From the NCBI RefSeq assembly GCF_004015795.1, contig NZ_ML137218.1:1959811-2023810 (forward strand): a stretch of DNA of 64,000 nucleotides, given 5' to 3'. Positions 1 to 22,876 of this stretch are shown here, piece by piece. Both the position numbers and the translations under genes were made by a program. Every line of letters starts with the position of its first letter. Within the stretch, counting starts at the first letter, position 1. The stretch is from Falsirhodobacter deserti. Lineage in GTDB: Bacteria > Pseudomonadota > Alphaproteobacteria > Rhodobacterales > Rhodobacteraceae. The notes beneath the pieces are model-generated. The model was not told where the DNA came from, ran no database searches, and saw only the letters and a program-made list of their open reading frames with translations.

Positions 1-1351
1 GACAACTATCGGCCTTGCCGCGCTTCTGGCCACGGCCGCGCTGCCCGCGCTGGCGCAAGACGCACCTGCCGCGCCGGAGGCCGCAGCAGCGGTTGCCGTT
101 CCGACCGACGTGGCGTTCATCTTCAACACGCTTCTTTTCCTGATCGGGGGCTTTCTTGTCTTCTGGATGGCGGCCGGCTTTGCCATGCTGGAAGCGGGCC
201 TTGTGCGGTCCAAGAACGTCGCGATGCAGTGCCTGAAGAACATCTCGCTGTTTTCGCTGGCCTGCACGATGTATTACCTTGTCGGCTACAACCTGATGTA
301 CCCGCTGGGCAACTGGAGCATCGGCTCCGACGAGACCGGCGGCTATCTTGGCGCCTTCGGGGTGGCCATCCTTGAAGCGGTGGGCGTGACGTCCGATGCG
401 GTCGACGACTATTCCTATGCCTCCACGGGTTCGGACTTCTTCTTCCAGGTGATGTTCTGCGCCACCACGGCCTCCATCGTGTCGGGCGCACTGGCCGAAC
501 GCATCCGCCTTTGGCCCTTCCTGATCTTCACCGCCATCCTGACGGCGCTGATCTACCCGATCCAGGCCTCGTGGAAATGGGGCGGCGGGTTCCTTGACGC
601 GGCCGGCTTCATGGATTTCGCAGGATCCACCGTGGTTCACTCGGTCGGTGGCTGGGCTGCGCTGGCGGGTGCCATCATCCTTGGGCCGCGCCTTGGCAAA
701 TACGCGCAGGGCCGCGTGGTGGCCTTCCCCGGCTCCAACCTGACGCTGGCGACACTGGGCACCTTCATCCTGTGGCTGGGCTGGTTCGGGTTCAACGGCG
801 CTTCGCAGCTTGCGATGGGCACGATCAGCGACGTCGCCGATGTCAGCCGCGCCTTCGCCAACACGAACGCCGCCGCCGCGGGTGGTGCATTGGCCGCGCT
901 TGCCATGACGCAGATCATGTACAAGAAGGTCGACCTGACGATGGTGCTGAACGGGGCGCTGGCCGGCCTCGTCTCCATCACAGCGGAACCGCTGTACCCC
1001 ACGCTTGGCGGGGCGATCCTGATCGGCGCCGTCGGCGGCATCCTGGTCGTGCTGACCGTTCCGCTGCTGGATCGCGTCAAGATCGACGACGTGGTAGGTG
1101 CGATCCCCGTGCACCTTGTCTGCGGCATCTGGGGCACGCTGGCTGTCGTGTTCTCCAACCCTGATGCGACGCTTGGGGCGCAGCTGATGGGCATCGTGAT
1201 CGTGGGCATCTTCGTCTTCGTCGTGTCGGCCATCGTGTGGCTGATCCTGCGCGCCACCACCGGCCTGCGGGCAACAGCGGAAGAAGAAACGCTGGGCTTC
1301 GATAAGGCCGAACTGGGTCTGGAAGCCTATCCGGAGTTCACGAAGCTCTGA
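1..1351 (+). CDS. amt: Ammonium transporter (5' end outside window)
   Basis: Amt/MEP/Rh family channel that moves ammonium across the inner membrane. The reading frame is open from base 2, and the first visible residues form the end of a signal sequence (hydrophobic stretch ending in ALAQ), so the GTG at 110 is internal and the true start lies left of the window. About 449 residues are visible, including the family segments FWMAAGFAMLEAGLVR near the first helices and DFAGSTVVHSVGG in mid-protein, with the pore histidine in the latter. The C-terminal cytosolic tail (EEETLGFDKAELGLEAYPEF) resembles the GlnK-contacting tail of AmtB. A PII gene (glnK) usually sits upstream, but that is outside the window. 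A strong hairpin follows the stop codon. Confidence 0.95.
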   Translation, partial: TTIGLAALLATAALPALAQDAPAAPEAAAAVAVPTDVAFIFNTLLFLIGGFLVFWMAAGFAMLEAGLVRSKNVAMQCLKNISLFSLACTMYYLVGYNLMYPLGNWSIGSDETGGYLGAFGVAILEAVGVTSDAVDDYSYASTGSDFFFQVMFCATTASIVSGALAERIRLWPFLIFTAILTALIYPIQASWKWGGGFLDAAGFMDFAGSTVVHSVGGWAALAGAIILGPRLGKYAQGRVVAFPGSNLTLATLGTFILWLGWFGFNGASQLAMGTISDVADVSRAFANTNAAAAGGALAALAMTQIMYKKVDLTMVLNGALAGLVSITAEPLYPTLGGAILIGAVGGILVVLTVPLLDRVKIDDVVGAIPVHLVCGIWGTLAVVFSNPDATLGAQLMGIVIVGIFVFVVSAIVWLILRATTGLRATAEEETLGFDKAELGLEAYPEFTKL

Positions 1352-1376
1352 TCTCCCCAAAGGAAAGTGCCTTGAA

Positions 1377-1401
1377 AGCCCCGCCACCGGCGGGGCTGTT
1401 T
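1377..1401. terminator. Bidirectional hairpin terminator between converging genes
   Basis: A perfect 9-bp stem (AGCCCCGCC/GGCGGGGCT) with a 3-nt loop lies between the stops of amt (plus) and the aminotransferase (minus), followed by GTTTGT on the plus strand. Its placement and strength suggest it ends transcripts from both sides. The T-run is short, so efficiency is uncertain. Confidence 0.75.
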
Positions 1402-1402
1402 G

Positions 1403-2563
1403 TCAAAGAACAGCGGCGATCGCCTTGGCAACAACGGGAATGCTGTCGCGGCTCAGCCCGGCCACGTTGATCCGGCTGTCATCCAGCATGTAAACGCCGT
1501 GCCGGTCCCGCAGCGCCTGCGCCTGCGCCACTGTCAGCCCAAGGCGAGAGAACATTCCCCGATGTTCGGCCACAAAGCCGAAGCGGTCAGTCTGGCAGGC
1601 GTCCCGCAGGGCCACGGCCAGCCCCCCGCGAAGCGCGATCATGCCGGTGCGGATCTCCTCCAGTTCGGCCCGCCAGTCGGCGGCAAGCGCGGGATCGTCC
1701 AAGATGGTCGAAACCACGCGCGCCCCGTGATCGGGCGGGAACGAAACGGTCAGCCGGTTCACCGCCGCAAGATTGTCCTGCACCAGCGCGCGATCCCCAC
1801 CCACCGCCAGCAGTACCCCCGCCCGCTCGCGATAGATCCCGAAATTCTTGGAGCAGGAGGCCGCAACCAGCACCTCCGGCAGCCGCTGCGCCAGAAGGCG
1901 CGTGGGCAGCGCATCCTCCTCCAGCCCGTCGCCAAACCCCTGATAGGCCAGATCCACCAGCGCCGGCGCGCCTGCCCGTTCCAGCACCGCCGCCACCTCG
2001 GCCCACTGGGCCAGCGACAGGTTCGCGCCGGTGGGGTTGTGGCAGCAGCCATGCAGCAGCACGACATCACCCGCCTTCACCCGCGCCAGATCCTCCAGCA
2101 TCCCCGGCACGTCCAGCCCGCCCGTCGCCGCATCGAAATAGCGATATCGGGCGCGCCGCAGCCCCATATGGTCTATGATCGCGGGATGGTTCGGCCATGT
2201 CGGGTCCGACAGCCAGATCGTGACATGCGGCGAGGCTGCGCGGATCAGCTCCAGCGCCTGCCGCAGCGCACCGGTTCCGCCCACGGTGGCAATGGCCGCC
2301 CCCGTTTCCGCACCAAGGATCAGGCGCCGCATGCCCGACAGGAACGCGCCGTCACCCGCCATGGCGGTATAGACCTTCGTTTCCTGACGTTCCCAAACCA
2401 GCCGCTCGGCGCTGCGCACGGCGCGCATGACGGGGGTGCGGCCTTTGGCATCCTTGTAAACGCCTACGCCCAGATCAACCTTCACGGGGCGCGGATCGTC
2501 CCGGAAGGCCTGCATCAGGTGCAGGATCTTGTCCGCAGGCTGCGGTTTCAGGTTTTCAAACAT
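1403..2563 (-). CDS. Class I aromatic/aspartate-type aminotransferase
   Basis: PLP-dependent fold type I transaminase of the aspartate/aromatic amino acid (AspC/TyrB) family, 386 aa. It transfers amino groups between aspartate or aromatic amino acids and 2-oxoglutarate in the cytosol. The N-terminus MFENLKPQPADKIL and DLGVGVYKDAKG are family hallmarks. CCHNPTG lies near residue 174, and the Schiff-base lysine is in SCSKNFG (about K239). I chose the ATG at 2563 rather than upstream starts because the family begins at MFENL. This start overlaps the sulfurtransferase stop by 8 bp, indicating translational coupling. Whether aspartate or aromatic substrates dominate cannot be read from the sequence. 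Confidence 0.92.
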   Translation of the reverse strand: MFENLKPQPADKILHLMQAFRDDPRPVKVDLGVGVYKDAKGRTPVMRAVRSAERLVWERQETKVYTAMAGDGAFLSGMRRLILGAETGAAIATVGGTGALRQALELIRAASPHVTIWLSDPTWPNHPAIIDHMGLRRARYRYFDAATGGLDVPGMLEDLARVKAGDVVLLHGCCHNPTGANLSLAQWAEVAAVLERAGAPALVDLAYQGFGDGLEEDALPTRLLAQRLPEVLVAASCSKNFGIYRERAGVLLAVGGDRALVQDNLAAVNRLTVSFPPDHGARVVSTILDDPALAADWRAELEEIRTGMIALRGGLAVALRDACQTDRFGFVAEHRGMFSRLGLTVAQAQALRDRHGVYMLDDSRINVAGLSRDSIPVVAKAIAAVL

Positions 2564-3389
2564 CGCCCGTCTCCACCGGCAGGTCGGCGCGGCCGCCCCA
2601 TTCGGTCCATGAACCATCGTAAAGCGCGTGATCGCGATGGCCCAGCCGTTCCAGCGCAAGGCTCAGCACCGCCGCCGTGATGCCCGACCCGCAAGAGGTG
2701 ATCACAGGCCGCTCCAGATCGATTCCGGCGGCCACAAAGGCTTGCCGCAGGTCCTCCACCGGCTTCATCGTGCCGTCAGGGTTCAGAAGCTGGCCAAAGG
2801 GCAGATTGCGCGATCCGGGAATATGACCGGTGCGCAGACCGGGGCGCGGTTCGGGCGCCTCGCCGCGGAAGCGGGCGGCAGCGCGGGCATCGACGACCTG
2901 CGCCCGCCCCTCGGCCACCTGCTCGGCCGTGCGAATGCGCGCGGGCTGCGGGATGGGGGTTACGGCCTCGGCCAGCGGCTGCGGCACTTCGGTTGTCAGC
3001 GGACGCCCTTCGGCCTGCCATTTCGGCAGTCCGCCATCCAGCACGGCCACCGCGTCATGGCCCATCAGGCGGAACAGCCACCAAACCCGCGCCGCAGACC
3101 GCACGCCCGAGGCGTCGTAGACCACGACCTGTGTCGCCCCGCCGATGCCCATGGCACCGATCGCGGCCCCGAACATCTCGGCAGACGGGGCCATGTGCGG
3201 CAAGTGGCTGTCGGCGCTGATGGCATCAATATCGAAGAACCGTGCGCCGGGGATGTGGCCAGCCCCATATTCGGCGGCGGGATCGCGCCCTTCGGCGGGC
3301 ATGTGCCACGATCCGTCCAGCACAACGACATCATCCAGATGCGCGGCCAGCCAGTCGGTGGAAACAAGGGTAAGGGGATCGTCGGTCAT
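2556..3389 (-). CDS. sseA: 3-mercaptopyruvate/thiosulfate sulfurtransferase
   Basis: Tandem rhodanese-domain sulfurtransferase, 277 aa. The N-terminal inactive rhodanese domain has YDASGVRSAARVWWLFR (about residues 95-115). The C-terminal catalytic domain carries the loop CGSGITA, with the catalytic cysteine near residue 233. The CG(S/T)G(V/I)T loop is the mercaptopyruvate-type signature, as opposed to the CRxGxR of thiosulfate rhodaneses. It would transfer sulfane sulfur from 3-mercaptopyruvate to thiols or cyanide. It is upstream of and overlaps the aminotransferase. Transaminases of this class can make 3-mercaptopyruvate from cysteine, so the pair is a plausible cysteine-degradation module (inference). 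Confidence 0.93.
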   Translation of the reverse strand: MTDDPLTLVSTDWLAAHLDDVVVLDGSWHMPAEGRDPAAEYGAGHIPGARFFDIDAISADSHLPHMAPSAEMFGAAIGAMGIGGATQVVVYDASGVRSAARVWWLFRLMGHDAVAVLDGGLPKWQAEGRPLTTEVPQPLAEAVTPIPQPARIRTAEQVAEGRAQVVDARAAARFRGEAPEPRPGLRTGHIPGSRNLPFGQLLNPDGTMKPVEDLRQAFVAAGIDLERPVITSCGSGITAAVLSLALERLGHRDHALYDGSWTEWGGRADLPVETGDV

Positions 3390-3422
3390 GGGGGCACCTC
3401 CGCCCCCTTGGTTACGCGCCCG

Positions 3423-3890
3423 TCAGCCCTGCTTCAAGAGCCGCTGCTTCTGGCGGTTCCAGTCCCGCTTGGCCGCGGTTTCCCGCTTGTCGGCCACCTT
3501 CTTGCCCTTGGCGATGCCGATGCGGATCTTCACCACGCCACGATCGTTGAAATACATCCGCAGCGGCACCAGCGTCATGCCTTCGCGCTTCGTTGCGTTC
3601 CACAACCGGGCCAGTTCCTTGCGACTGACCAGCAGCTTGCGCTTCCGCCGCTCCTCGTGGCCCCAGGTCTTGGCCTGAAGATAGGGCGCGACATATCCGT
3701 TGATCAGCCAAAGCTCCCCGTCCTCGACGCTGGCATAGCTTTCGGCGATGTTCGAGCCGCCCTGACGCAGGGACTTCACCTCGGATCCAAGCAGCATGAT
3801 CCCTGCCTCAAGATCATCCTCGATGGCGTAATCGAACCGCGCACGGCGGTTCTCGGCGATCAGCTTGCTGTTTGGATCGGATTTTTTCAT
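3423..3890 (-). CDS. smpB: SsrA (tmRNA)-binding protein SmpB
   Basis: 155-aa RNA-binding protein of trans-translation that escorts tmRNA to stalled ribosomes. The whole family pattern is present: [15 protein letters not shown] near the N-terminus, [17 protein letters not shown], and the basic C-terminal tail ([21 protein letters not shown]) that enters the mRNA channel. Length is normal. It is downstream of dapA on the same strand with a gap of 37 bp, a pairing common in alphaproteobacteria. The tmRNA gene is not in the window. Confidence 0.98.
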
Positions 3891-3927
3891 CGGGCAGAGA
3901 TAGGGGCCACGGGGCCTTTCGTCCAGA

Positions 3928-4803
3928 TCAGTTCAAAATGCCGGCATGGCGCATGGCGGCATCGATCCGCGCCTTCACGCCGTCCGAAACGCCAACCAGC
4001 GGCAGGCGCACCTCGTCCTCGCACCGGTCCAAACACGACAGGGCGTATTTCGCCCCCGCAAGGCCGGGTTCAAGGAAGATCGCCTCGTGCAGGGGCATCA
4101 GGCGATCCTGATAGGCCAGCGCCTTGGCATAATCGCCGGCAAGCGTCGCCGCCTGGAATTCGGCGCAAAGGCGCGGGGCGACGTTCGCGGTCACGCTGAT
4201 GCAGCCAACGCCGCCATGTGCGTTGAAGCCAAGCGCGGTCGCATCTTCGCCCGAAAGCTGCACGAAATCCGGCCCGCAGGTGATGCGTTGCTGGCTGACG
4301 CGTTCCAGCTTGCCGGTCGCATCCTTCACACCGATGATTCGGGGCAGCTTTGCCAGCTCTCCCATCGTTTCGGGGCTCATATCCACGACAGAACGGCCGG
4401 GGATGTTGTAGATGATGATCGGCAGGTCGCAGCTGTCATGCAGCGCGCGGTAATGGGCGATCATGCCCGCCTGCGTGGGCTTGTTGTAATAGGGTGTGAC
4501 GACCAGCGCCGCATCCGCCCCCGCGTCCTGCGCGTAACGGATCAGGCCAATCCCCTCCACGGTGGAGTTGGAGCCGGCTCCGGCGATCACGGGCACGCGG
4601 CCGGCCGCGTATTCCACCACCGCAGCGATCACGGTGCGGTGTTCATCATGGGTCAGGGTGGGGCTTTCGCCCGTCGTGCCCACCGGCACCAACGCCGAGG
4701 ATCCTTCGGCGATCTGCCAATCCACGAGCTTCTTCAGCGTATCCAGATCCAGGGCGCCGTCCTTGAACGGCGTCACGAGGGCAGGAATGGACCCCTTGAT
4801 CAT
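3928..4803 (-). CDS. dapA: 4-hydroxy-tetrahydrodipicolinate synthase
   Basis: Class I aldolase, 291 aa, condensing pyruvate with aspartate semialdehyde, the first committed step of lysine and meso-diaminopimelate synthesis. Visible hallmarks are GTTGESPTL near residues 43-51, the tyrosine of IIIYNIPGR (about Y132), and the Schiff-base lysine in [10 protein letters not shown] (about K160). Length is typical. It begins the minus-strand dapA-smpB unit and is divergent from the lytic transglycosylase across about 130 bp, so the two share an upstream region. Confidence 0.97.
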
Positions 4804-4932
4804 GACACGCTTCTCCTGTGCGAAATGCGGATTCGTCCGCCGTCATCTGGCGTCTTACGCGCGTGGCAGCGCTTTGCCAAGCTGGCGGCTTCTTGAGTTG
4901 TGGCATCGCCTGCGCTTTGGCAGGATGCCGTC

Positions 4933-6843
4933 ATGAAACGCGCCCTGCTTCTATCCGCCTGCCTGATGCTGCCCCTGCCCGCCTTCGCCGAGGACGGGCT
5001 GGCCGCGGCCCTTGCCCTTGCCGCGCGACATGACTGGACCGAAGCGGCCCGCGTCGTGAACAGCGACGTGGCCCGCGACATCGTGGAATGGCAGCGCCTG
5101 CGGGCGGGCGAAGGCACCGCCGCCGAGTATGAGGATTTCCTGACCCGCCGCCCCGACTGGCCGGGCCTGCCGCTGCTGCAAAGAAAGGGCGAAGGCGCGA
5201 TTGCCACCTCGGGGGATGCGGGCCGCATCATCACCTTCTTCGCCGCCCTGCCCCCGCAAACGGCGAAAGGGGCAATAGCCCTGTCCCGCGCCTATCTTGC
5301 AACGAACCGCGCCCCCGAAGCGCAGGCCGAGGCGGAGCGGGCATGGCGCGATCTGTCCCTTTCCGCCGAGGAACAGACCGAACTTTCGCAGATGTATCCC
5401 GTGCCGCTGGCGGGGCTGGACATCCCGCGCACCGACCGCCTTTTATGGGACGGCGCGCGGGCCGAGGCAGAGCGGATGATCCCGCGCCTTTCCATGGGCT
5501 GGCAGGCGCTGGCACGGGCGCGGATCGCCCTGCGCGCCGATGAACAGGGCGTGGATGACCTGATCCATGCGGTGCCCGAACAGCTTGCCGATGATCCCGG
5601 CCTTGCCTTCGAACGCTTTGCATGGCGGATGCGGCGTGGCTTTTACGAAACCGCCGCCGAACTGATGCTTGAACGCAGCGGCAGCGCCGAAACGCTGGGC
5701 CTTCCGGAAAAATGGGCGCCCCGCCGCATCTATCTCGTGCGCGAGTTTCAGGACAGCGATCCCGATCTGGCCTATCGCCTCGCCTCCTCGCACCACCTGA
5801 CAGAAGGCGGAAGCTTTGCCGATCTGGAATTTCTGGCCGGCCATATCGCCCTGCGCAAGCTGAACCGTCCCGCCGAGGCGCTGGAACATTTCCGCCATCT
5901 GGAAACCGGCGTCGGCACCGCCATCAGCCTGTCACGCGCGCTTTACTGGCAGGGCCGCGCACAAGAGGCGATGGGCAATTTCGATGCGGCGATGAACACG
6001 TTCCGCAAAGCGGCCGACCACTCCTCGGCCTATTACGGGCTGCTTGCTGCCGAGAGGCTGGGCCTGACCACAGATCCCGCACTTCTGGCGCAGGATCACG
6101 CCCCCGACTGGCACGGCGCGACCTTCACAACATCCTCGGTCTTTCAGGCGGCGCAGCTGCTTCTGGCGGCGGGGGATTTCCAGCTTGGCCGCCGCTTCAT
6201 CCTGCATCTGGCCGAATCGCAGGATGCCACCGGCCTTGCCCAGCTTGCCGACATGGCGCTGGAAACCGGGGAACCGAACATCGCCCTTGGCGTGGCCAAA
6301 ATGGCCGCCTATCGCGGGATCATCCTGCCTGCCGCCTATTACCCCGTGCCCGATCTGGTGCCCGAGGGGCTGCCGGTGACCCGGGCCTTCGCCCTTGCCA
6401 TTTCCCGCCGCGAATCCGAATTCGATCCGGCGGTTATCAGCCCCGCAGGGGCACGCGGGCTGATGCAGGTTATGCCGGAAACCGCGCGCCGCTTGGCCGC
6501 AGGCCTTGGGGCCGACCATGACCGCGCGCGCCTGACCACCGATCCGGCATGGAACGTCACGCTCGGTTCCACCTACCTTGCGCAGATGATCGAAATCTTC
6601 GGCCCGTCGGTGGCGCTGGTCGCCTCGGGTTACAATGCGGGGCCGGGCCGCCCTGCCCAGTGGATCGAAAGGCTGGGCGATCCGCGTGATCCGCAGGTGG
6701 ACGTGGTGGACTGGGTGGAAGCGATCCCCTTTGCCGAAACGCGAACCTATGTGCAGCGCGTGGTGGAATCGCTGGTCATCTATCGCGCGAAACTGGCCGG
6801 GACCCCCATCCCCGTCCGCGTCACGGACGAGCTACGGGGGTAG
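4933..6843 (+). CDS. Soluble lytic murein transglycosylase (Slt70-like)
   Basis: Periplasmic GH23 lytic transglycosylase of 636 aa that cleaves peptidoglycan glycan strands to 1,6-anhydro-muropeptides. The start at 4933 gives a clean Sec signal peptide (MKRALLLSACLMLPLPAFA). Residues about 25-480 are alpha-helical superhelix (U/L-domain-like). The catalytic domain follows with SRRESEFDP (catalytic Glu about 494), GARGLMQVMPETAR, SGYNAGPGRPAQW and ETRTYVQRV, all classical Slt motifs. The 3' end overlaps the convergent EamA transporter by 23 bp. Confidence 0.95.
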   Translation: MKRALLLSACLMLPLPAFAEDGLAAALALAARHDWTEAARVVNSDVARDIVEWQRLRAGEGTAAEYEDFLTRRPDWPGLPLLQRKGEGAIATSGDAGRIITFFAALPPQTAKGAIALSRAYLATNRAPEAQAEAERAWRDLSLSAEEQTELSQMYPVPLAGLDIPRTDRLLWDGARAEAERMIPRLSMGWQALARARIALRADEQGVDDLIHAVPEQLADDPGLAFERFAWRMRRGFYETAAELMLERSGSAETLGLPEKWAPRRIYLVREFQDSDPDLAYRLASSHHLTEGGSFADLEFLAGHIALRKLNRPAEALEHFRHLETGVGTAISLSRALYWQGRAQEAMGNFDAAMNTFRKAADHSSAYYGLLAAERLGLTTDPALLAQDHAPDWHGATFTTSSVFQAAQLLLAAGDFQLGRRFILHLAESQDATGLAQLADMALETGEPNIALGVAKMAAYRGIILPAAYYPVPDLVPEGLPVTRAFALAISRRESEFDPAVISPAGARGLMQVMPETARRLAAGLGADHDRARLTTDPAWNVTLGSTYLAQMIEIFGPSVALVASGYNAGPGRPAQWIERLGDPRDPQVDVVDWVEAIPFAETRTYVQRVVESLVIYRAKLAGTPIPVRVTDELRG

Positions 6844-17356: not shown

Positions 17357-18220
17357 ATGACGCGCATTGTCTATGTGAACGGCGAATACCTTCCCGATAC
17401 GGAAGCCAAGATTTCCATCTTCGACCGCGGCTTCCTGATGGCCGATGCCGTCTACGAGGTGACCTCGGTTCTGGATGGAAAGCTTCTGGATTACGCCGGG
17501 CATGAATCGCGCCTTGCCCGCTCGCTGGACGAGCTGGGGATGGCCAATCCCGTCACGAAAGAGGAACTGCTGGCGATCCACCGCGAACTGGTGTCGCGCA
17601 ACGGCGTCGGCAATGGCCTGGTTTATCTTCAGATCACGCGCGGCAGCGCGGGCGACCGCAGCTTCGTGTTCCCCGATCCGGCCACCACCCCGTCGGGCAT
17701 CGTGCTGTTCACGCAGAAGGTCGATGATCTGGATTTCCCGCCCGCAGCCAAGACGGGCATCAAGGTCATCGCATTCGACGATCTGCGCTGGGGCCGCCGC
17801 GACATCAAGACGGTGCAGCTTCTGTGGCCCTCGATGGCGAAGATGGCGGCAAAGAAGGCCGGTTGCGATGACGCCTTCTTCGTGCAGGACGGGATGGTGA
17901 CGGAAGGCTCCGCCTCCAACGCTTATATCGTGAAGGGCAACCGCATCATCACGCGCCCGCTGTCCAACGATATCCTGCACGGCATCACCCGCGCCACGCT
18001 GCTGAAATACGCCGCCGAAGCCCAGTTCGAGATCGAGGAACGCGCCTTCACCATCGCCGAGGCGCAGGCCGCGGACGAAGCTTTCGTGACCGGCGCCTCC
18101 ACTTTCGTGATGCCGGTGGTGGAAGTTGACGGCGCAAAAGTGGGCAGCGGCACGCCCGGCCCCGTCGCCACCCGCCTGCGCGAGCTTTACATCGAGGAAG
18201 CGAAAAAGGCCGCGATCTAA
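17357..18220 (+). CDS. D-amino-acid transaminase (fold type IV)
   Basis: 287-aa class IV PLP aminotransferase close to D-alanine transaminase. FDRGFLMADAVYEVT near residues 23-37 and RDIKTVQLLWPSMAKMAAK with the Schiff-base lysine near residue 145 are diagnostic, as are EGSASNAYIV and ITRATLL. It would exchange amino groups between D-alanine/D-glutamate and 2-oxo acids. ATG 17351 overlaps the dgcA stop (ATGA), but GGGG at 17347-17350 is correctly spaced for ATG 17357, which I used. It completes a D-amino-acid operon with dgcN-dgcA. Confidence 0.85.
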   Translation: MTRIVYVNGEYLPDTEAKISIFDRGFLMADAVYEVTSVLDGKLLDYAGHESRLARSLDELGMANPVTKEELLAIHRELVSRNGVGNGLVYLQITRGSAGDRSFVFPDPATTPSGIVLFTQKVDDLDFPPAAKTGIKVIAFDDLRWGRRDIKTVQLLWPSMAKMAAKKAGCDDAFFVQDGMVTEGSASNAYIVKGNRIITRPLSNDILHGITRATLLKYAAEAQFEIEERAFTIAEAQAADEAFVTGASTFVMPVVEVDGAKVGSGTPGPVATRLRELYIEEAKKAAI

Positions 18221-18384
18221 CGGCGCGGCGCGCTTTCGCGCAACCACACCTCGGCGGCATCCTCTTCGCGGGGGGCCGCCATGCGGGACGCGTCCCGCGT
18301 CACATGCGGAAGATCGACGGGCGGGCGAGCCGTTGCAGGGCCGCCCAGCCCAAGGCAGATCATCGCAGCAAAAAGTCGCAACAT
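18217..18384 (-). CDS. Small secreted protein of 55 aa
   Basis: Short open frame with a clear Sec-type signal (MLRLFAAMICLGLGGPATA) followed by about 36 polar residues rich in Arg, Glu and Pro. GGAG stands 7 nt upstream of the ATG at 18384. The stop overlaps that of the D-amino-acid transaminase (convergent, 4 bp). It lies just downstream of the N-formylglutamate amidohydrolase gene on the same strand. Function unknown and no family recognised. Confidence 0.6.
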   Translation of the reverse strand: MLRLFAAMICLGLGGPATARPPVDLPHVTRDASRMAAPREEDAAEVWLRESAPRR

Positions 18385-18435: not shown

Positions 18436-19185
18436 TCAAAACGCCATCGCGTGATCCAGATCGGCCACCGCCGCCGCGACGACCGGGGCAAGCCGGTCCG
18501 CCCATGCCGCCTGCCCCGCAGGGCTTCGGATCAGGTCGTTGCGCAATTCGATCAGCGTGTTGTGTCGCCCCTTCTGCAATGCGTGGCGATCGATGGCATC
18601 GCCCGGAAGGTGCCCCGAATAGGGTTCGTTGTCGCCAGTGCAGATGTCCGGCTCGGCCCGCAGACGGGCGATCAGCCGCTGGCTCAGCCTGTCGTTCAGG
18701 GGCGAATGCAGCACGCCCACATGCCACGGTCGCTGCGCCCGCCCGTTCAGGCGCGGCGTGAAACTGTGGATCGACACGATCACGGTATCGTCCCGCCGCG
18801 CCGCCAGCCGCGCCAGCGCCGCGTGATAAGGGCGGTAAAGCGTGTCCAGCCGCCGCTCCACCTCTGCCGCATCGACATGGCGGTTGGCGGGGATGATCGT
18901 GCCGTCATAAAGGCGCATCACCAGCGTGGGATCATCCTCTCCCCGGTTCGGATCGATGACGAGGCGCGAGAAATCCGACAGCACCGCCGTCGCCCCCAAA
19001 CGGTCCGCCAGCGCCACCGCCAGCCCGGCCGCGCCCACGTCGAAGGCGATGTGGCGGTTCATGTCTTCGGCCGCGATTCCCAGATCGCCGCCGTTCACAT
19101 CGCCCGGCACGCGGTTGCTTGCGTGATCGCAAGTGACCAGAATCTGGGCGTCGCGATTTTCGCCATGGATACGGAACGGGTGCAC
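18436..19185 (-). CDS. N-formylglutamate amidohydrolase family protein
   Basis: 249-aa FGase-family (DUF-type HutG2) zinc hydrolase. ILVTCDHASNRVPGD at residues about 15-29 (metal-binding His) and VSIHSFTPRLNGRAQRPWHVGVLH in the middle are family hallmarks; the C-terminal HNTLIELRNDLI block is also conserved. It hydrolyses N-acyl glutamate to L-glutamate. The start is GTG 19185 with AAGGAGGG upstream. There are no other histidine-utilisation genes here. Next to the D-glutamate genes it is a candidate for the deacylase that releases L-glutamate from N-acetyl-L-glutamate (inference). Confidence 0.85.
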   Translation of the reverse strand: MHPFRIHGENRDAQILVTCDHASNRVPGDVNGGDLGIAAEDMNRHIAFDVGAAGLAVALADRLGATAVLSDFSRLVIDPNRGEDDPTLVMRLYDGTIIPANRHVDAAEVERRLDTLYRPYHAALARLAARRDDTVIVSIHSFTPRLNGRAQRPWHVGVLHSPLNDRLSQRLIARLRAEPDICTGDNEPYSGHLPGDAIDRHALQKGRHNTLIELRNDLIRSPAGQAAWADRLAPVVAAAVADLDHAMAF

Positions 19186-19274
19186 GTGGCCCTCCTTGTC
19201 GCATTTCCTTCGGGTTGACCCTATATCCCGACGAGAACCGAAGCCAGTTGCGAGGGATGTTGTGCGCTAACACG

Positions 19275-19786
19275 AAAGCGGGCAAAACATCCCCAAGGAA
19301 TGGGAGAATTGAATGAGACGCCTTCGCAACGTCAAGATCGTGGCCACGCTTGGTCCTGCTTCCAGCAGCTACGAGGTGATCCGCGCACTGTTTGAGGCCG
19401 GTGCCGACGTGTTCCGCCTGAACATGAGCCACGGAAGCCATGACGACATCCGTGCGAGGCACGAGATTATCCGCCGGATCGAAAGCGACACGGGCCGCCC
19501 CATCGGCATCCTTGCCGACCTTCAGGGCCCAAAGCGGGCAAAACATCCCCAAGGAATGGGAGAATTGAATGAGACGCCTTCGCAACGTCAAGATCGTGGC
19601 CACGCTTGGTCCTGCTTCCAGCAGCTACGAGGTGATCCGCGCACTGTTTGAGGCCGGTGCCGACGTGTTCCGCCTGAACATGAGCCACGGAAGCCATGAC
19701 GACATCCGTGCGAGGCACGAGATTATCCGCCGGATCGAAAGCGACACGGGCCGCCCCATCGGCATCCTTGCCGACCTTCAGGGCCC
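19275..19786 (+). repeat. Exact 256-bp tandem duplication of the pyk 5' end
   Basis: Bases 19275-19530 and 19531-19786 read identically. Each unit contains 38 bp of pyk leader including the GGGAG ribosome-binding site, the ATG and the first 218 bp of coding sequence. Bases flanking the units differ (G versus C at the left edge, A versus G at the right). 256 is not a multiple of three, so the first copy shifts frame at the junction. The junction shows short imperfect homology (CGAAAGC versus CGAAGC). Confidence 0.95.
19313..19651 (+). pseudogene. Truncated duplicate of pyk (5' 73 codons plus frameshifted tail)
   Basis: This frame starts with its own RBS and ATG and reads the first 73 residues of pyruvate kinase (through ILADLQGP), then at the duplication junction runs out of frame for 39 more residues to a stop at 19651 inside the intact copy. 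It is nearest the presumed promoter, so it would be transcribed and translated first. The product would lack the active-site barrel and the B domain and should be non-functional. Ribosomes terminating at 19651 pass over the RBS and start of the real gene. Confidence 0.85.
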
Positions 19787-21014
19787 GAAGCTGCGCGTCG
19801 GCGTGTTCGCAAACGATTCCGAGGAACTGGCCGAAGGCGCACCCTTCCGTCTGGACCTGTCGGATGCGCCGGGCGATGCCACGCGCGTGAACCTGCCCCA
19901 CCCCGAGATTTTCGCCGCGCTGGAGCCGGGGGCTTCGCTTCTGGTCAATGACGGGAAGATCCGCCTGCGGGTGCACGAATGCGGCACCGATTTCGCCAAT
20001 TGCGTGGTGGAAGTCGGCGGCACCATTTCGAACCGCAAGGGTGTGAACGTGCCGGACGTGGTGCTGCCGCTGGCGGCGCTGTCTGCAAAGGACCGCAAGG
20101 ATCTGGAGTTCATCTGCGATCTGGGCTGTGACTGGCTGGCCCTGTCCTTCGTGCAGCGCCCCGAGGATGTGACCGAGGCACGCGACCTGGCAAAGGGCCG
20201 CGCCGCGATCCTGTCCAAGATCGAGAAGCCGGCCGCCGTGAAGGCCTATGACGCGATTCTGGAAGCGTCGGACGGCATCATGGTCGCGCGGGGCGATCTG
20301 GGCGTGGAACTGCCGGTGCAGGCCGTTCCGCCGATCCAGAAGCGCCTGGTCCGTCTGGCCCGCGCCGCCGCCAAGCCGGTGATCGTGGCCACGCAGATGC
20401 TGGAATCGATGATCGATTCGCCCGTTCCCACGCGGGCCGAGGTGTCGGACGTCGCCACCGCCATCTATGAAGGCGCCGATGCGGTGATGCTGTCTGCCGA
20501 ATCCGCTGCCGGCCATTATCCGGTGGAAGCGGTAACGACGATGAACAACGTCGCCATCTCGGTCGAAAGCGACAGCACCTACCGCGAGGTGATCGAGGCA
20601 AGCCGCTCGGCCAAGCGCGCCTCGGTTGCCGATGCGATCGTGGCCGCCGCGCGCGAAATTGCGGAAAGCACGCCGATCAAGGCGATCTGCTGCTTCTCGC
20701 AAACCGGCACCACGGTGTCGCTGGTGGCCCGTGAACGCCCGCGCGTGCCAATCATGGCGCTGACGCCGCTGATGGAAACCGCGCGGCGCATGACGCTGAC
20801 ATGGGGCACCCATTGCGCGATCACCGAATCACAGCACCGCTTCAAGGGGGCGGTTCTGGCCGCGGCCAAGGCCGCACGGCAATACGGCTTCGCGACCGAG
20901 GATGAACAGATCGTCGTGACCGCCGGCGTGCCCTTCAACCGTGCCGGCACCACGAACATCCTGCGCGTCGCCCCTTGCGACGAACGCCGGATCGTCAGCG
21001 CCGAGTTCGAATAA
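19569..21014 (+). CDS. pyk: Pyruvate kinase
   Basis: 481-aa glycolytic enzyme forming pyruvate and ATP from phosphoenolpyruvate and ADP. Intact: N-terminal [27 protein letters not shown] in the B-domain region, the catalytic SKIEKPAAV and [12 protein letters not shown], and the family signature [10 protein letters not shown] with [25 protein letters not shown]. Its 5' region (RBS, start and 72 codons plus two bases) exists twice in tandem, so transcripts from the original promoter carry an extra 256-nt leader containing a truncated ORF. Confidence 0.97.
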
Positions 21015-21016
21015 GC

Positions 21017-21045
21017 TTGCAGCGGGCGGTGTTCCACCTTATACG
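21017..21045 (+). promoter_or_regulatory. rpmI: Candidate promoter of rpmI-rplT
   Basis: TTGCAG and TATACG with 17-bp spacing start just after the pyk stop. Predicted start near 21052 gives a leader of about 70 nt that contains the hairpin described next. Confidence 0.4.
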
Positions 21046-21060
21046 CCGCCCCCTGATACC

Positions 21061-21097
21061 CGCGCGCCCGGCCGATGTGGCATTGCCGTGGCGCGCG
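21061..21097 (+). repeat. Leader hairpin upstream of rpmI
   Basis: CGCGCGCC and GGCGCGCG form a perfect 8-bp stem around 21 nt, ending 14 nt before the AGAGGAG ribosome-binding site of rpmI. It may act in L20-type autoregulation or attenuation, or as the pyk terminator. It has no T-run. Confidence 0.45.
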
Positions 21098-21123
21098 TTC
21101 ACAACTCGCAAGAGGAGACGAAA

Positions 21124-21324
21124 ATGCCCAAGATGAAGACAAAGTCGGCCGCGAAGAAGCGCTTCAGCTTCACGGCCTCCGGCCGCGTCAAGGCCGGTCC
21201 TGCCGGTAAGCGCCACGGCATGATCAAACGCTCGACGAAATTCATCCGCGACGTCACGGGAACGATGATCCTGTGCGATTCGGACGAGAAGATCGTCAAG
21301 AAATACATGCCCTACAACCGGTAA
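21124..21324 (+). CDS. rpmI: 50S ribosomal protein L35
   Basis: 66-aa basic ribosomal protein bL35. [20 protein letters not shown] and [15 protein letters not shown] are diagnostic, with a C-terminal KKYMPYNR. The RBS AGAGGAG precedes the ATG. It is followed 11 bp later by rplT. infC, often upstream in this operon, is replaced here by pyk. Confidence 0.98.
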
Positions 21325-21335
21325 GGAGAGCGTAG

Positions 21336-21698
21336 ATGTCCCGCGTTAAATCCGGCGTCGTCACGCACGCCCGTCACCGTAAAGTCATCAAGGCGGCCAA
21401 AGGCTACTACGCCGCCCGTTCGACGAACTTCCGCACCGCGACCCAGGCCGTCGACAAGGCGAACCAGTACGCGACCCGCGACCGCAAGACCCGCAAGCGC
21501 ACGTTCCGCGCCCTGTGGATCCAGCGCATCAACGCGGCTGTTCGCCTGTTCGACGCCGAGATGACCTATTCGCGCTTCATCAACGGTCTGGCGCTTGCCG
21601 GTATCGAAGTGGACCGCAAGGTTCTGGCCGATCTGGCCGTGCGCGAGCCCGAGGCGTTCAACGCCATCGCGGCCCAGGCGAAAAAAGCCCTCGCCTGA
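21336..21698 (+). CDS. rplT: 50S ribosomal protein L20
   Basis: 120-aa bL20, an early 23S rRNA assembly protein. [33 protein letters not shown] and [13 protein letters not shown] match the family. It is co-transcribed with rpmI and ends at a strong intrinsic terminator. In other bacteria L20 represses its own operon through a leader RNA. Confidence 0.98.
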
Positions 21699-21708
21699 TC
21701 TTCGAAAA

Positions 21709-21732
21709 GCCCCGCTTCGGCGGGGTTTTTTA
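21709..21732 (+). terminator. Intrinsic terminator after rplT
   Basis: Stem CCCCGC-TTCG-GCGGGG with a stable TTCG loop followed by TTTTTT and located 11 bp past the rplT stop. Textbook Rho-independent form. Confidence 0.9.
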
Positions 21733-21793
21733 TTGCCCGCCTTGCCAGTCAGCGCCCCTGCGGCTAATCCAAAGCCGGACCAAGGAGGCCGGC

Positions 21794-22876
21794 ATGGACG
21801 GGATCGACACGCTTCGCGACACTTACCTCAACCGCATCAAGGATGCCGGGGATGAGGCTGCGGTGGAGGAGCTTCGTCTTGCCGCGCTTGGCAAGAAGGG
21901 CGAAATCAGCCTGAAGATGCGCGAGCTGGGCAAGATGACGCCCGAGGAGCGCCAGACGACCGGCGCCGCGCTGAACCGTTTGAAGGACGAACTCGACGCA
22001 GCCCTGCGGGCTCGCAAAGCTTCGCTTGCCGATGCCGCGCTGGAACAGCGCCTTGCCGCCGAATGGCTGGACGTGACGCTGCCGGGCCGCCCGCGCCGCT
22101 TCGGCACCATCCACCCTGTCAGCCAGGTCATGGACGAGCTGACCGCCATCTTCGCCGATATGGGCTTTTCCGTTGCCGAAGGCCCGCAGGTCGAATCCGA
22201 CTGGTACAACTTCGACGCGCTGAACATCCCGCCCGAACACCCCGCGCGGCAGGAACATGACACCTTTTTCATGCATCGTGCGGAAGGCGATGACCGCCCG
22301 CCCCACGTGCTGCGCACCCACACCTCGCCCGTGCAGATCCGCGCGATGACGCAGCAGGGCGCGCCAATCCGCGTGATCGCCCCCGGCCGCGTGTATCGCA
22401 TGGACATGGATCAGACCCACACGCCGATGTTCCACCAGGTCGAAGGCCTCGCCATCGACAAGAACATCTCCATGGCCAACCTGAAATGGGTGCTGGAGGA
22501 GTTCTGCCGTGCCTTCTTCGAGGTGCCCTCGGTCGAACTGCGTTTCCGCGCGTCCCACTTCCCCTTCACCGAACCCTCGGCCGAGGTGGATATCCGCTGT
22601 TCATGGGCGAACGGCCAGCTGAAGATCGGCGAAGGTGACGACTGGATGGAAATCCTCGGCTCCGGCATGGTGCATCCGAAGGTGCTGAAGGCCGCGGGTG
22701 TCGATCCCGACCAGTGGCAGGGCTTCGCCTTCGGCATGGGCATCGACCGGCTTGCGATGCTGAAATACGGCATCCCCGACCTGCGCGCCTTCTTCGAATC
22801 CGATCTGCGCTGGCTGCGCCATTACGGCTTCGCCTCGCTTGACATGCCCGACCTTGCCAGCGGGCTGAGCCGCTAA
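21794..22876 (+). CDS. pheS: Phenylalanyl-tRNA synthetase alpha subunit
   Basis: 360-aa class II aminoacyl-tRNA synthetase catalytic subunit. An N-terminal coiled coil (about residues 1-90) precedes the catalytic domain with motif 2 ([30 protein letters not shown]) and motif 3 ([17 protein letters not shown]). The start at 21794 follows AAGGAGG and gives the normal length. It forms an alpha2-beta2 enzyme with PheT, whose gene starts 12 bp downstream. Confidence 0.98.

Follow-up and report, generated by a model that had tools for sequence, protein, structure and literature searches.

An exact 256-bp tandem duplication across the start of pyruvate kinase in Falsirhodobacter deserti is most probably an unmerged contig overlap

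The pyruvate kinase gene (pyk) of Falsirhodobacter deserti lies in the window analysed here, a 64-kb stretch of genomic DNA (64,000 nucleotides), between an N-formylglutamate amidohydrolase-type gene (PF05013) upstream on the opposite strand and the rpmI and rplT genes downstream, and this gene setting is ordinary. The start of pyk is present twice in the sequence. Positions 19275 to 19530 recur base for base at 19531 to 19786 (256 of 256 positions identical), head to tail and with a spacer of 0, forming a repeat that is far beyond chance and the sole tandem repeat in the window at a period of 20–5000 and an exact run of at least 0.9 of the period. Tandem Repeats Finder also detects the 256-bp repeat, along with four other arrays that are all short (period 12–22); it places the end at 19791 because AAGC matches again after a differing base (A at 19531, G at 19787). 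The features of the locus are as follows.

19258–19274, forward strand: conserved upstream motif TGTT...CGCTAACA, found in seven of seven genus sequences in an alignment; directly 5′ of the unit and outside the duplication
19275–19530, forward strand: copy 1 of the 256-bp unit, comprising the 3′-terminal 38 nt of the pyk leader with the ribosome-binding site (RBS), followed by 218 nt of coding sequence starting at the ATG
19313–19651, forward strand: truncated, frame-shifted open reading frame (ORF) of 112 aa from the first ATG, aligning with pyruvate kinase models over about 74 residues
19527–19535, forward strand: junction GCCC/AAAGC, with no N, an exact microhomology of 0, and AAGC in common after one G/A mismatch
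19531–19786, forward strand: copy 2 of the 256-bp unit, identical to copy 1, which opens the intact pyk
19569–21014, forward strand: intact pyruvate kinase of 481 aa (NF004886, 675 bits; TIGR01064, 490 bits; both above cut-off)

The base-for-base comparison agrees with the coordinates and the absence of any difference between copies described in an earlier sequence-only reading, whose 73 codons per unit are corrected to 72 full codons plus 2 nt. Because 256 is not a multiple of three, the reading frame begun at the first ATG closes after 112 aa, and the one begun at the second is the intact pyk; as that reading had also described, the decoy ORF stops 83 nt within the intact gene. Each copy carries the RBS AAGGAATGGGAG; by predicted opening energy (10.8 kcal/mol for the second RBS, 13.0 kcal/mol for the first), the second should be at least as accessible.

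The conserved motif TGTT...CGCTAACA is a candidate binding site for CceR, a regulator of the LacI type whose site it resembles. Deletion of cceR in Paracoccus is described as raising Pyk (PMC11323563). A TATA-like block upstream of pyk is likewise kept in the genus alignment. A sigma-70 scan of 19100–21150 yielded a single site at 21098–21125 and none upstream of pyk, and on this result a promoter within the 256-bp unit was rejected; judging from the conserved TATA-like block, the pyk promoter probably lies outside the duplicated unit. An Rfam scan of 18900–21900 (E up to 1) returned four matches, all below the gathering score and all at 21672–21790, outside the repeat, and a known RNA element at the repeat was therefore rejected. 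A mobile copy of the region was also rejected, as a megablast search of 19000–21100 against a plasmid collection gave no match.

The duplication appears to be confined to this assembly among the sequences compared. The 256-bp unit is single in all six other genomes of the genus, which belong to other species (in two of them only the coding part matches). No tandem repeat (period 20–1500, exact run of at least 0.8 of the period) was found in 109 pyk loci of relatives, spanning 708,883 bases. A protein search of 41 genomes matched pyk in 40, and an extra match limited to the first 75 pyk residues occurred only in the window's own genome; the second pyk matches in three genomes (G008, G025 and G028) are separate homologues, long or partial. 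Among the contigs recovered that carry a species name, Rhodobacter xinxiangensis TJ48 has the closest pyk (89%).

The sequence across the copy junction at 19530/19531 reads GGGCCC/AAAGCGGG. The exact microhomology that is expected of microhomology-mediated tandem duplication is absent at the unit ends, as it is at about half of random breakpoints (0.53). At random blunt junctions, four or more matches occur in 0.66% of cases on the AAGC side and in 1.3% on either side, figures limited by the fact that the AAGC pattern was chosen after being seen. This imperfect homology modestly favours replication slippage; a contig join on a short imperfect overlap would give the same appearance. There is no N anywhere in the 64-kb window, and no gap is visible between the pyk copies.

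The assembly as a whole is a gapped draft. It comprises 2,982,257 bases in seven contigs, five of 106,094–2,292,967 bases and two of 525 and 505 bases. Three 5S genes lie inside contigs, and the view that this is a good, long-read-like assembly was overturned by the ten-N gaps and the contigs of about 500 bp. A 16S search of this genome gave no match, and runs of 47, 1810 and 1439 N near the 5S genes suggest that the rRNA regions are masked; a run of 990 N at C1:2080378 (L215:10378-11367) is either a gap or another masked region. We scanned the window and 106 sampled stretches (2,079,257 bases including N; with the window, 72% of the genome) for tandem repeats with a period of 60–1500 and an identity of at least 85%. 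The scan yielded eight: the pyk unit, a second duplication at C1:17749-18260, two tandem tRNA pairs (tRNA-Gly and tRNA-Asp), and four repeats with a ten-N run between the copies. The 106 stretches contain six such ten-N runs inside contigs, and at these four of the six matching flanks of 210–447 bp abut both sides of the N run.

C1:2206500 (L155:6500-6929): exact doubled end of 210 bp, covering the beginning of a gene with no family name above cut-off (weak Mitofilin match)
C1:242507 (L161:17507-18380): doubled end of 432 bp, exact, in sucB
C1:833854 (L165:8854-9757): doubled end of 447 bp, exact, in pntA
C5:14498 (L177:14498-15221): doubled end of 357 bp in an IS110 transposase, one mismatch between the copies

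The remaining two of the six ten-N gaps, in transposase-like frames, have no doubled ends. The sucB unit is single in all six other genus genomes, in each of which, as in the window's own genome, a weaker second match overlaps the other lipoyl-domain region; the pntA unit is single in five of the six, and the sixth gave no match. The doubled ends, through which sucB and pntA read as broken in this assembly, are most simply explained by scaffolding in which overlapping contig ends stayed unmerged. All four lengths are multiples of three (a chance of 1 in 81), which contig overlap does not predict and which counts against an artefact; 256 is not such a multiple. A contig-end error does not account for the mismatch in the IS110 unit, as two further copies of the IS match copy B (the contig start) there and differ from copy A; a joint probability of 0.0053 for three mismatches near unit ends was dropped for this reason.

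The second duplication lies just after an M20 peptidase-type gene. Its tandem copies (C1:17749-18004 and 18005-18260; L113:17749-18260) are also exactly 256 bp long, with a spacer of 0 and no N. Both mismatches fall close to the end of copy A, at distances of 20 and 2 bases, as at a poor contig end; the chance that both fall in the last 20 of 256 bp is about 0.006. A third, dispersed partial copy (C1:33524-33678, 155 bp, 95%) agrees with copy B at the first mismatch and stops before the second, and given this copy the duplication could be a natural repeat. Besides the tRNA pairs, the pyk unit and this one are the only N-free duplications in the window and the 106 stretches, and their common length would arise by chance about once in 800–1400 if lengths were spread over 60–1500. 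Two N-free 256-bp duplications, one of them with errors at the expected contig end, suggest a fixed technical overlap. The further N-free duplications of period 256 that this would lead one to expect did not appear in the last 20 stretches scanned.

The likeliest cause of the pyk duplication, and a probable one, is an overlap between assembly pieces that was not merged. The beginning of pyk would have been covered by two pieces with a 256-bp overlap, either a pair of contigs or one contig plus a patch used to close a gap, and these would have been placed end to end with the overlap left uncollapsed, so that a single-copy X-U-Y was written as X-U-U-Y. The organism would then have one ordinary pyk with one start, and the 112-aa decoy ORF and any switch built on it would not exist. 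False duplications are characterized by near-identical copies at overlapping contig ends and by gaps between the paired copies, in the accounts cited (PMC2864568, PMC9516828). At pyk, the adjacent copies are identical, and the same defect recurs elsewhere in the assembly, at four of six ten-N gaps; a gap or boundary between the copies is present at those four sites and not at pyk. Two points are inferred: the pyk junction, although free of N, would be a join of this kind, and the 256-bp length would be of technical origin. The zero divergence between the copies and the lack of exact microhomology at their junction were also counted for an artefact. Counted against it were the N-free junction, unlike the four doubled gap ends, and the AAGC homology, as well as the two undoubled N gaps, the IS110 mismatch and the absence of a third 256-bp case; in addition, duplications within contigs are described as rarely false (PMC2864568). 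Because no gap is visible between the pyk copies, the assignment is indirect and stays below certainty. The closest parallel is that of duplicated overlapping contigs (DOCs), as presented by Kelley and Salzberg in 2010 (PMC2864568), in which near-identical adjoining ends are written consecutively and look like a very recent duplication beside a join or gap. The DOCs described there come from two vertebrate haplotypes and lie in separate contigs, whereas the present case is bacterial and its join has no N run.

A real, very recent and unselected tandem duplication is an unlikely origin. During replication, the nascent strand would slip back by 256 bp, its GCTTT end pairing on GAAGC with a terminal T-G wobble, and the N-free junction with its imperfect homology of 4–5 bp is consistent with such an event. 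The predicted accessibility of the second RBS also fits, as does the intactness of pyk through copy 2, though an overlap artefact would leave the same. Several findings stand against these points: contig ends are doubled at no fewer than four N gaps of the same assembly, which also contains another 256-bp duplication free of N; the pyk copies have not diverged at all; and tandem duplication occurs in 0 of 109 relatives' loci. Known duplications offer partial likenesses. The microhomology-mediated tandem duplications (MTDs) of ssp1 in S. pombe, as summarized in a review (PMC13207564), are likewise intragenic, head-to-tail and frame-shifting, and could revert by recombination, but they are bounded by exact microhomology, whereas the pyk unit has none and only the imperfect AAGC. 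Spontaneous RecA-independent duplications in bacteria (PMC3411829) are similarly tandem, with ends that lack an IS element; in the confirmed Salmonella cases reported there, the homology at the junction was about 11 bp or longer, in contrast to the exact homology of zero found here, which speaks against a real duplication. The literature on bacterial intragenic, microhomology or short-junction duplications offered general parallels only, and the duplication in PMC5343319 is one of 5 bp. The sequence-only reading had named both a very recent event and an assembly artefact; the evidence favours the second.

That reading had also proposed altered glycolytic control and a reversible state. A duplicated start maintained by selection as an off/on or low/high switch of pyruvate kinase is highly improbable: the layout alone suggests it, in that a decoy ORF overlaps the true start and the identical repeats could be collapsed by RecA. 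Neither the six other genus genomes nor any of the 109 sampled pyk loci show the arrangement, and the exact identity of the copies is no sign of age or selection. Both altered control and the switch derive from the letters of the locus and are unsupported. Hardly credible, too, is a real, lineage-specific process that makes N-free duplications of a fixed 256 bp (pyk and C1:17749-18260) and places a start behind a decoy in a form reversible by recombination.

Were the duplication real, the intact pyk start would sit inside a translated out-of-frame ORF, with an RBS identical to the first. As the upstream motif lies outside the unit, the putative promoter and control site would not be duplicated, and both starts would lie on the same transcript. 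The second RBS would be traversed by ribosomes translating the decoy ORF, so that a moderate fall in Pyk seems the likeliest outcome, and recombination between the copies could restore the single-copy form. It would then be a neat but ordinary short tandem duplication, potentially reverting. If, as is more probable, the pyk duplication is an unmerged contig overlap, the 112-aa ORF and the switch should be kept out of annotation, and sucB and pntA, which contain doubled ends of the same assembly, would be falsely broken in it.
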